Shown here in pieces: positions 34,543 through 39,127 of a stretch of 64,000 bases of DNA. The position numbers were made by a program, and so were the translations under genes. The notes under the pieces were generated by a model that saw only the letters and a program-made list of their open reading frames with translations, was not told where the DNA came from and did not search any database. The DNA lies in contig NZ_CP121687.1 in NCBI RefSeq assembly GCF_038396635.1, positions 1,612,001 through 1,676,000 of the forward strand, written 5' to 3'. How positions within the stretch are numbered: position 1 is the stretch's first letter; each line of letters starts with the position of its first letter. This stretch comes from Defluviitalea saccharophila. GTDB taxonomy: Bacteria; Bacillota; Clostridia; Lachnospirales; Defluviitaleaceae.

Positions 34543-34577
34543 AAAATAATAACTAGGGAAAAATCTTCCCTAGTTAT
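34543..34577 (-). terminator. spoIIID terminator
   Basis: Arms ATAACTAGGGAA and TTCCCTAGTTAT, then TATTTTAC on the minus strand. It starts right after the spoIIID stop and separates it from mbl. Confidence 0.85.
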
Positions 34578-34858: not shown

Positions 34859-34902
34859 CCCCCCTTAACACAACTCTTGTTTTATATATATGTTAAGGGG
34901 GG
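34859..34902 (-). promoter_or_regulatory. Inverted repeat covering the spoIIID ribosome site
   Basis: On the minus strand CCCCCCTTAACA, a 20-base spacer and TGTTAAGGGGGG form a perfect 12-bp stem. The GGGGGG of the second arm is the spoIIID Shine-Dalgarno. No T-run follows, so it does not look like a terminator for spoIIQ. Confidence 0.75.
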
Positions 34903-34925: not shown

Positions 34926-35783
34926 TTATTTGTTTAAGAACTCTTTCGGATCAACCGGTACATCGTCTTTTGTTACTTGGAAATATACGTGATTGCCTAA
35001 AGCAACGGAATACTTTGTAGGCGCTCCTATTTCTCCTATAACTTGACCCTTTTCTATTACTTCATTTTGTTTTACGGAGATATTTTTCTGCAATTGACCG
35101 TAGATTGTTTTCCATCCGTCTCCATGATTAAGGATGACTGTAATTCCGGTTTCAGGGTCATTTTTGATCATTTCAACTTTTCCTTTGGCTGCTGCTTTAA
35201 CGATACCTTCTTCTGTTGGAGCAATACAAATTGCAGGGTGAACTCTATACTGTTCCAGGGTTTTATCAAAAACTAATTTATCGACACTATAGTCCATGAC
35301 GATTTCCCCGGATACAGGCCATACAAGAGAAGAAGTTTCGCTAAAAGAAAAGGTTTCTTCTACATCTTCACTGGTTTCCGTTTTATCGGTTTGATTTTCG
35401 TTTGCTTTTTCTGTAGAAGCCGGTGTAGTTTCCTGCACTTCTTTATTGGACGCTACCACAATATCTTCTGTCGTACTCGTATCTTCCTTTGCCGCTTCTT
35501 CTTTAGAAGAATTTTCTGCAACGGCACTTCCTGCTCCTTCAATATCTTCTTCCGTAATATTTAAGTCGTTCTGATAGGCATTAATCGTTCCCACATCTTC
35601 TAAGTCATAGTCTCCAAATTCTTCGTTTAAATCGATGGAATTTTGTTCGTTCACTTTGTCCAGAGTATTCATATTATTTCTGGTGATAAATGTAGTTGTC
35701 CCAATCACCGTTAGAATACATAATAACAAAATCGCATAATAACTTTTCTTATTTAGATACGTCCAAAATTTATATTTTTTCAT
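34926..35783 (-). CDS. spoIIQ: Stage II sporulation protein SpoIIQ (degenerate M23 domain)
   Basis: A 285-residue forespore membrane protein. It has one N-terminal membrane segment (AILLLCILTVIGTTTFI, about 17-33), a long acidic linker (about 40-150) and a C-terminal LytM/M23 domain (about 155-275). SpoIIQ binds SpoIIIAH across the septum and tethers engulfment. The zinc-site positions are largely lost: His182 is present but the next ligand is Cys186 instead of Asp, YGQL (Gln230) replaces the usual YxHL, and the HxH is His265-x-Tyr267. It is probably a structural, not enzymatic, protein. spoIID lies 44 bases upstream. Confidence 0.9.
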   Translation of the reverse strand: MKKYKFWTYLNKKSYYAILLLCILTVIGTTTFITRNNMNTLDKVNEQNSIDLNEEFGDYDLEDVGTINAYQNDLNITEEDIEGAGSAVAENSSKEEAAKEDTSTTEDIVVASNKEVQETTPASTEKANENQTDKTETSEDVEETFSFSETSSLVWPVSGEIVMDYSVDKLVFDKTLEQYRVHPAICIAPTEEGIVKAAAKGKVEMIKNDPETGITVILNHGDGWKTIYGQLQKNISVKQNEVIEKGQVIGEIGAPTKYSVALGNHVYFQVTKDDVPVDPKEFLNK

Positions 35784-35827
35784 CTTGTATCCACCTCCGT
35801 CTATAGTATAACCGGAGGTAAAATGGG

Positions 35828-36847
35828 CTATTCACTTTTCAAAATATTTTCCTCTATTTCATTAATTTCTTTAATCTGGACCCCCTGATAGTAATGGGTT
35901 AAAATTTCTCTATAGTTTTTCCCTTCCTTAGCCATGTAATTGGCTCCATATTGACTCATTCCAGCCCCGTGGCCATACCCCTTAGTAAAGAAAATAAGAT
36001 TATCTCCTTCTTCTTCAATGGAGAAACAACTGGACCTTAGATTAAACAGCTTTCTTATTTCTTCTCCGCTTAAAACTTTATTGCCTATTTGAACCTTTTT
36101 AATATATCCTCCGCTGTTTCTTTCTATGATCTGAATTTGCTGCATTAAGTCCTGTATAACGATATCAGGGTACTTTTCCTTTAGCAACTGATATACTTCC
36201 TGTTTAGAAAGCTTCGTCTCAGATTCAAATGAAGGTGCTTCCTGATCGCCTATACTTTCTACGCTTTGAAGGTACGGTACATCCACTTCCCATACATCTT
36301 CTGCACTCTGGGTAATGCCTGCACTGGTAGAATGAAAAACCGCTTCAATAGGTTCTTCTTCATATGTCATAATCTCATTCCGGGTTTCTTCCACTGCTCT
36401 AGAGATTTTATCATAGTATGTATAAAAATTATCTCCCCAATTTTTTTTTAATTCCTCTTTAGATAAATATGCCTGCCCTTTAGAGGGATCGGTTGAAATA
36501 TCTGCTCCTTTAAGGTCTTCCTTTCCTTTTTGATTAATCTTCTTAACCGCATAGGTTCTTGCCGCCACTGCCTGTGCCTTTAAAGCTTCTATTTCAAATA
36601 ATGCAGGCATCTCCGCTGCCAATACACCTTTAATATACTCTTCAAATTCCAGATTCATAATCTTTCCGGACTGCACATCTAATACTTTAACCATCCTCGT
36701 ATTTTTTTTGTTACTTTTTTCTACCTTCTTTTCTGCAAGTTCCTGCGGCTTGACTGCCGGGCTGTCTCCCAGAAACGATGTAATAAAAGCGGGCAATCCG
36801 ATAATTGCTAAAAAAACCATTAAAAAAAGAGCTCCTACTTTTTTCAA
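35828..36847 (-). CDS. spoIID: Stage II sporulation protein SpoIID
   Basis: A 339-residue peptidoglycan lytic transglycosylase required for engulfment. The N-terminal membrane segment is VGALFLMVFLAIIGLPAFI. The SpoIID domain shows LEFEEYIKGVLAAEMPALFE near residue 70, then LKAQAVAARTYAVKKI, and near the end GYGHGAGMSQYGANYMAKEG, the family signature. The catalytic Glu is in AAEMPA. TTG 36847 was chosen: AGGGGGG lies five bases upstream and the membrane segment then begins almost at once; the longer ATG frame reads through a dispersed repeat. Confidence 0.92.
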   Translation of the reverse strand: MKKVGALFLMVFLAIIGLPAFITSFLGDSPAVKPQELAEKKVEKSNKKNTRMVKVLDVQSGKIMNLEFEEYIKGVLAAEMPALFEIEALKAQAVAARTYAVKKINQKGKEDLKGADISTDPSKGQAYLSKEELKKNWGDNFYTYYDKISRAVEETRNEIMTYEEEPIEAVFHSTSAGITQSAEDVWEVDVPYLQSVESIGDQEAPSFESETKLSKQEVYQLLKEKYPDIVIQDLMQQIQIIERNSGGYIKKVQIGNKVLSGEEIRKLFNLRSSCFSIEEEGDNLIFFTKGYGHGAGMSQYGANYMAKEGKNYREILTHYYQGVQIKEINEIEENILKSE

Positions 36848-36993
36848 GCTATCCCCCCTGTAATTTTGTGCCCATTTGTAAATCATGATATGTCTTGTAC
36901 ATTTATATGTAAGGGGAAGAAATTTCATTACCTCTAAAAATAAGAAAGCGTTTGCTTGCGAAACTCTTGCGCCGAGCACGATTGGCAAAGCCG

Positions 36994-37020
36994 ACAAAAT
37001 ACAATATGCGCCAGTGTGCA
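36994..37020. repeat. Dispersed repeat A, copy 2
   Basis: A 27-base sequence that differs from 30615-30641 at one position (GCGCCAG instead of GCGCGAG). It lies between murA and spoIID, next to palindromic repeat B. Confidence 0.75.
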
Positions 37021-37035
37021 TTCTGCCGAAGGATT

Positions 37036-37079
37036 TTTCATTGCATAGGAAATCTTAAAGAATTTCCTATGCAATGAAA
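37036..37079. repeat. Palindromic repeat B, copy 1
   Basis: A perfect 18-bp inverted repeat with an eight-base loop; each arm contains TTGCATAGGAAA. The core is shared with 62469-62514. It lies between spoIID and the murA terminator and has no T-run of its own. Confidence 0.75.
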
Positions 37080-38380: not shown

Positions 38381-39127
38381 CTAGTAATCTACTGTAATGA
38401 CCGGCGTTGCAAGATAAAGATAGGTACTGCCTTCATATTCATTGTAATGAAATGCAAGATTAACATTAATCTTTTTGCCGTTGGAAACTAACCAATCATC
38501 AATCAATCTTGTGTACCCATAAACACTGTAAATTTCTTCTGTTTCATAGGTTTCCTCGATCTTTGCTCCTATGTCTTTCATGATGTTTTTTGCTATTTTT
38601 TCTTTTTCTTCTTTGCTTAAGTCTCCTCTAAGAGTTCCTGCAATCGTAATATTGGTAGTAGGTTTCATGTTGTTTTCTGCAAAGATACTGTCTAACTCTT
38701 CTTTTAAATAAGGGATGCTGTCATATTGGCCATATAGGATAATATCAATGATAACATAGGTATTTGTACTATTTTCTTCTTCATACTTGATGGATTCCAA
38801 CTTGACAGTGGTTTTAGCATTTTTCGAAACTCTAGTTGTAGTGAATTCTCTAAATGTATCGCTGTCTTTTTCTTCTGTGTTGTCAGCTTTTAAAATTCCT
38901 AGAGCCTCTGTAATTCTCTTAGAATAAGCTTTCATTTCTTCAAGATCGGAAAATGATTGATTTAACAGTCCCCAACTGTTGAGATTGATTTGAATGGTTT
39001 CGAAATCAGAATTATTAAACGCTGAAAGAAGAGTTCTTTCACCATTTTTATTATTTCCTATTTGCAGAAAAGCTACACTATAAACTATTGCTAAAAATCC
39101 TAAAAAAATGATTACCTTTTTTTTCAT
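38381..39127 (-). CDS. ywmB: YwmB-family secreted protein
   Basis: A 248-residue protein in the ywmB position between atpC and murA. The N-terminus MKKKVIIFLGFLAIVYSVAF is a signal peptide or anchor. The rest shows the two-repeat alpha/beta pattern of the YwmB/TATA-box-like family, with LRGDLSKEEKEKIAKNIMKD near 175 and YGYTRLIDDWLVSNGKKINV near 205. Its function is unknown. It is separated from murA by 15 bases and is likely cotranscribed with it. Confidence 0.8.
   Translation of the reverse strand: MKKKVIIFLGFLAIVYSVAFLQIGNNKNGERTLLSAFNNSDFETIQINLNSWGLLNQSFSDLEEMKAYSKRITEALGILKADNTEEKDSDTFREFTTTRVSKNAKTTVKLESIKYEEENSTNTYVIIDIILYGQYDSIPYLKEELDSIFAENNMKPTTNITIAGTLRGDLSKEEKEKIAKNIMKDIGAKIEETYETEEIYSVYGYTRLIDDWLVSNGKKINVNLAFHYNEYEGSTYLYLATPVITVDY

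Follow-up and report, generated by a model that had tools for sequence, protein, structure and literature searches.

A predicted hairpin joining the spoIIID ribosome-binding site to its sigma-E promoter in Defluviitalea saccharophila, a candidate insulator against read-through RNA

Introduction

Several genes of phage T4, including gene e (lysozyme), soc, 49, and I-TevI, carry inhibitory hairpins at the site of translation initiation (PMC3014915). For gene e, the long early transcripts bury the Shine-Dalgarno (SD) sequence in the hairpin, while transcripts from a late promoter just upstream do not contain the 5′ arm and are translated, and a 100-fold difference has been reported for lysozyme (PMC3014915). 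Gene e is the proven precedent for an SD hairpin that blocks translation of read-through RNA. A large hairpin has also been proposed to block translation of spoIIGA-sigE read-through RNA at Bacillus subtilis sigG, and transcripts that start at the sigG promoter are unable to fold it; a separate small hairpin at the sigG ribosome-binding site lies in the native leader and dampens translation of all transcripts 2–4 fold (PMC5942855).

Here we analyze a hairpin at the ribosome-binding site of spoIIID in a 64,000-nucleotide stretch of the Defluviitalea saccharophila chromosome (hereafter, the window); Defluviitalea phaphyphila is the closest named relative. With its start site and its effect on translation predicted from sequence, the element appears to belong with the T4 gene e and B. 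subtilis sigG hairpins. It differs from gene e in that cell compartment takes the place of early and late phage timing, the sequences are unrelated, and, unlike in T4, a sporulation gene on the chromosome carries the arm within its sigma-E promoter spacer. Like spoIIID, the sporulation gene sigG of B. subtilis follows another sporulation operon, but it is a different gene with a different sigma factor in Bacilli, and, unlike the sigG case, the device at spoIIID and spoIIQ recurs across many Clostridia. The small sigG hairpin likewise buries the SD; however, the native leader expected here does not contain the spoIIID stem. We found no description of the spoIIID or spoIIQ hairpin in the open-access papers searched, most subscription papers being outside the search.

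Results

The genes on the minus strand are arranged in the order murA, spoIID, spoIIQ, spoIIID, and mreB (Table 1). The spoIIQ-like gene scores 51 of 250 bits against the NCBIfam SpoIIQ model, which is below the cut-off. Only 74 nt separate its stop codon from the spoIIID TTG and no terminator is listed between them, so that spoIIQ read-through RNA is likely to be made. The first terminator-like element downstream of both genes is the hairpin 3′ of spoIIID, whose minus-strand tail, TATTTTAC, is likewise T-rich. The listed start of spoIID is probably wrong, and the true start would be the TTG after ACAGGGGGGATAGC; about 170 nt inside the open reading frame, GGGGGGATAGC-TTG fits an SD and start codon.

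Table 1. Positions of genes, promoters, and hairpins in the window, with four hairpin stems from related loci
Feature	Position	Strand	Remarks
spoIIID, TTG start, 90 aa	34579..34851	-	TIGR02844, 126 bits vs cut-off 111.5
Right arm TGTTAAGGGGGG	34859..34870	-	holds SD GGGGGG (34864-34859)
Loop, 20 nt	34871..34890	-	with most of the -10 and the predicted sigma-E start (~34880-34876)
Left (anti-SD) arm CCCCCCTTAACA	34891..34902	-	RNA form reaches 34889 as CCCCCCTTAACATA
-10 of sigma-E type promoter, CATATATA	34885..34892	-
-35 of sigma-E type promoter, TCATAAA	34907..34913	-
spoIIQ-like M23 peptidase gene	34926..35783	-	presumed read-through source, between spoIID and spoIIID
spoIIQ hairpin	35793..35819	-	ACCTCCG (35819-35813) pairs with SD CGGAGGT (35799-35793)
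Sigma-F-like promoter of spoIIQ	GAATA (35833-35829)-N15-GGTTATACT (35813-35805)	-	by eye against the known sigma-F consensus
spoIID, listed ORF	35828..37021	-	TIGR02870, 371 bits
Hairpin 3′ of spoIIID	34549..34577	unset	scored on the plus strand by the terminator scan
L086 stem			CCCCTCAGAGTACTT/AAGTATTCTGAGGGG, arm in spacer
L035 stem			CCCTCATACATT/AGTGTATGAGGG, arm takes in the -10
L068 stem			CCTGCATATAATT/AATTATATGCAGG
L046 stem			CCCCTGCAATGCTT/AAGTATTGCAGGGG

The inverted repeat 5′ of spoIIID is complementary at 12 of 12 positions, and its SD lies 7 nt 5′ of the TTG. An earlier note on this DNA had described a perfect 12-bp inverted repeat with a 20-base loop and no T-run, and every one of its coordinates is right; it had also identified the GGGGGG SD of a gene starting at TTG 34851 as one arm of the stem, and this is confirmed. 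When the spoIIID strand is folded as RNA, the stem extends to 14 bp with one G-U pair, and the pairing runs beyond the SD into the AT-rich TTAACA/TGTTAA. RNA folding of the 211-nt region gave -43.4 kcal/mol compared with -33.8 kcal/mol for shuffled sequences (z -2.6), with 0 of 200 shuffles as good. Across the window, perfect 12-bp inverted repeats with loops of 3–40 gave 30 k-mer hits in 11 places, whereas 30 dinucleotide-shuffled windows averaged 0.3 hits and never had more than 2. Ordinary terminators account for some of the other places, and the spoIIID inverted repeat exceeds chance.

The left arm is contained in the spacer of a sigma-E type promoter, ATA-N16-CATATATA (34911-34885). This promoter is identical in form to that of Clostridium difficile spoIIID, where a start site was mapped by RNA-seq to ATA-N16-CATATATA; in C. 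difficile, spoIIID expression depends on sigma-E and spoIIQ is transcribed from a sigma-F promoter (PMC3789822). Counting 14 nt on from where the -10 begins puts the predicted spoIIID start at ~34878, inside the loop. From the promoter pattern and its mapped C. difficile counterpart, the native RNA is therefore expected to start in the loop and to have a leader without the left arm, in agreement with the dedicated promoter that the earlier note had proposed. Nearly all members of an initial set of 85 relatives have this promoter pattern at a similar site upstream of spoIIID, in most of them as TCATAAC followed by CATACAATGTAA.

In order to compare the two transcripts, we calculated the energy needed to open the six SD bases in an RNA starting 90 nt upstream (read-through) and in the predicted native RNA, where the SD was picked by a simple rule and all energies are predicted. 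Opening the spoIIID SD of the window would cost 19.1 kcal/mol in the read-through RNA, in which it is held in a stable 14-bp stem, versus 4.0 kcal/mol in the native RNA. These values support, at the level of sequence, the earlier note's claim that RNA reading in from spoIIQ would fold the stem and hide the SD, while RNA started in the loop would be free. Neighbor genes in the window and in the related loci served as the background. Among 48 window genes with an SD, burial by read-through is greatest for spoIIID (~15 kcal), followed by spoIIQ (8.5 kcal), and burial above 8 kcal is seen in 1% of 202 neighbor genes in related loci versus 20% of spoIIID genes. Over 229 clostridial spoIIID regions, mean SD opening is 7.4 kcal for the long RNA, 3.4 kcal for the short RNA, and 4.9 kcal when the left part is shuffled.

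Those 229 regions are the loci with distinct, usable upstream sequence among 259 collected; the GTDB set was selected by SpoIIID similarity, and the relatives are not independent. Long SD-burying stems are found in several groups with unrelated sequences (examples in Table 1), and in each of these the left arm ends before the predicted start. In 177 regions, the duplex formed by a genome's own left arm is stronger than one formed with another genome's left part (Wilcoxon p 1e-13), in a swap control that preserves promoter motif and composition. Within close groups, the majority of changes replace C by U opposite a G, so that the pair is retained as G-U, and in L004 all 14 pairs are kept with CCTTCC opposite GGGGGG. 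Double changes are rare within these groups (1 of 14 pairs, 2 of 15) and are often reached by shuffles, and for this reason they were dropped as main evidence and the case for covariation rests on the comparison between groups. Thus, the compensatory changes that the earlier note had named as a check are borne out between groups, where stems are kept with different sequences, but hardly within close groups. No such stem is present in several spoIIQ-adjacent groups (e.g., L131, L132, L220, L239, and L252), and the median gain for the spoIIQ-adjacent class as a whole is just 0.9 kcal.

The strength of burial depends on the upstream gene, which was called from open reading frames. Relative to shuffled left parts, SD opening has a median excess of 2.6 where the upstream gene is codirectional without a terminator (n = 95), 0.5 where it is codirectional with a terminator (n = 44), and -0.1 where it points in the opposite direction (n = 66). 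The effect of direction has a p value of 5.5e-6 before collapsing relatives, 0.003 when they are collapsed at 80% identity, and 0.02 at 70%, and it is not significant at 65% (p 0.09–0.13). The swap test gives the same order of classes, with -16.8 for own versus -10.3 for swapped arms in the codirectional class without a terminator and -11.1 versus -10.2, which is not significant, in the opposite class. That the stem follows the direction of the upstream gene is our main reason for reading it as an insulator.

The same comparisons bear on other explanations of the stem. A DNA operator, where a dyad over the promoter binds a regulator such as SpoIIID itself, would fit the perfect dyad and the distance of 32 bp between arm centers, which is about three turns and would suit a dimer. 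We consider an operator very unlikely, because the arm sequences are wholly different between groups while the pairing stays, the right arm sits at the SD in every case, and an operator need not depend on the direction of the upstream gene as the stem does. In addition, the stems overall contain 51 G-U versus 26 A-C oppositions, so G-U is tolerated twice as often, pointing to sense RNA rather than DNA, although C-rich left arms may partly cause this excess.

We give just as little credence to a terminator or a processing/stability hairpin of the spoIIQ mRNA. The stem is GC-rich and located at the end of spoIIQ, but on the spoIIID strand GGGGGG is followed by CCATCTTTTG with no U-run directly after the stem, the stem is absent from the terminator-scan list, and ending there would consume spoIIID's own SD. 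It would also leave matched arms unexplained where the upstream gene is not spoIIQ, which is the situation in most Lachnospiraceae-like loci; the SD-burying device is not tied to spoIIQ.

The earlier note had offered as an alternative an RNA switch, and a switch or thermometer would place the hairpin in the normal spoIIID leader, where a ligand, a protein, or temperature opens it. The SD-burying stem is stable, as a switch would have it, but with the promoter overlying the left arm, native RNA would be expected to lack it, and the proposal is unsupported. No Rfam family matches the element at E up to 1, pairing is conserved between groups while arm sequences are not, and the hairpin is on average missing where the upstream gene points away, all of which makes a switch about as improbable as an operator. 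Dependence on direction is predicted by neither an operator nor an RNA switch and favors an insulator. Least credible is a by-product of composition, in which C-rich promoter spacers pair by chance with G-rich SDs: shuffled left parts do still give some burial and the opposite-direction class sits at the shuffled level, but own arms outperform swapped arms with motif and composition kept, and the pairing does not stop at the SD but runs on into AT-rich bases.

A second stem is present at spoIIQ, where the promoter is sigma-F-like and the left arm falls on the end of its spacer and the first -10 base (Table 1). In 45 spoIIQ regions, SD opening is 7.7 kcal for the long RNA, 2.2 kcal for the short RNA, and 3.6 kcal for shuffled sequence. 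The sigma assignments of spoIID and the window spoIIQ are carried over from B. subtilis and C. difficile. On that basis, mother-cell and forespore genes alternate along the tandem array spoIID(E)-spoIIQ(F)-spoIIID(E), with a predicted RNA insulator at both inner junctions. The sigG gene of the same genome, considered as a second case after the B. subtilis precedent, has 8 nt of complementarity in its promoter spacer yet shows no burial (4.2 vs 3.4 kcal) and was ruled out. Very long spoIIQ stems, ACCTCCATGTATATTGTT .. AACAATAATATATGGAGGT, occur in L119, L128, L136, L223, L234, and L237, where they reach across the sigma-F -35, GTATA, and terminate within the SD; in L223 and L234, the stem covers the whole promoter.

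Discussion

The spoIIID hairpin is probably a cis-acting translational insulator against read-through RNA. In the mechanism that we infer, which extends from the start site and the existence of read-through RNA to the block in translation and its biological reason, the 5′ arm of the SD-burying hairpin would be encoded between the -35 and -10 of the spoIIID sigma-E promoter, and the same bases would serve as promoter spacer and as RNA stem. Transcription from this promoter in the mother cell would start in the loop and give a leader of ~27 nt without the 5′ arm, which would be translated. Polymerase entering from spoIIQ, which would be transcribed by sigma-F in the forespore with no terminator in between, would instead produce RNA with both arms; the hairpin would form ahead of ribosome binding and no SpoIIID would be made. 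SpoIIID, a mother-cell regulator, would in this way be kept from the forespore and from any cell in which polymerase strays in from upstream.

Sigma factors are the usual explanation for cell-type specificity in sporulation. They may not suffice where genes are arrayed in tandem with no terminator between them, as read-through would put mother-cell proteins in the forespore and vice versa; the hairpin would be an answer at the level of RNA. Stray SpoIIID in the forespore could matter because SpoIIID represses some sigma-G genes in C. difficile (PMC3789822). More tentatively, and as a generalization that could well fail, promoter-embedded anti-SD arms may add a second level of control over compartments throughout clostridial sporulation arrays. 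Wherever genes of opposite cells lie in tandem without terminators, as with spoIID, spoIIQ, and spoIIID, the spacer or the -10/-35 would double as an arm that keeps RNA entering from the neighbor from being translated, and this would have arisen many times independently. An SD complementary to its own promoter provides a rule for finding further cases.

Other hairpins were seen near these start sites. In L012, L094, L099, L105, L108, and L143, the promoter-region AGGAAGGGCC pairs with GGCCTTTTC between the SD and the spoIIID start codon, a variant that differs from stems pairing with the SD core alone. In L021, L022, L028, L037, L039, L040, L055, and L064 (also L030 and L036), a hairpin is located between AAGGGGG and the spoIIID ATG. 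These hairpins keep their pairing while varying in sequence (GCGTTCC..GGAACGC, GCGTTCTGTC..GACAGACGC, and TTCCGAG..TTCGGAG), and the SD-to-ATG spacing is normal once the hairpin is looped out, resembling T4 genes 38 and 25 (PMC3014915). No hairpin is present in the near relatives L047 and L078, which have AGGGGGAACCCTATG.

Within the window, a long hairpin, TTTCATTGCATAGGAAAT..ATTTCCTATGCAATGAAA, at 37036-37079 between murA and spoIID is possibly a terminator, which would render an RNA insulator at spoIID unnecessary. The YwmB-like gene before murA (38381-39127) has an SD-burying stem, CTTGTCCATA / TATGGGCGGGAG, with 8.6 versus 0.6 kcal.
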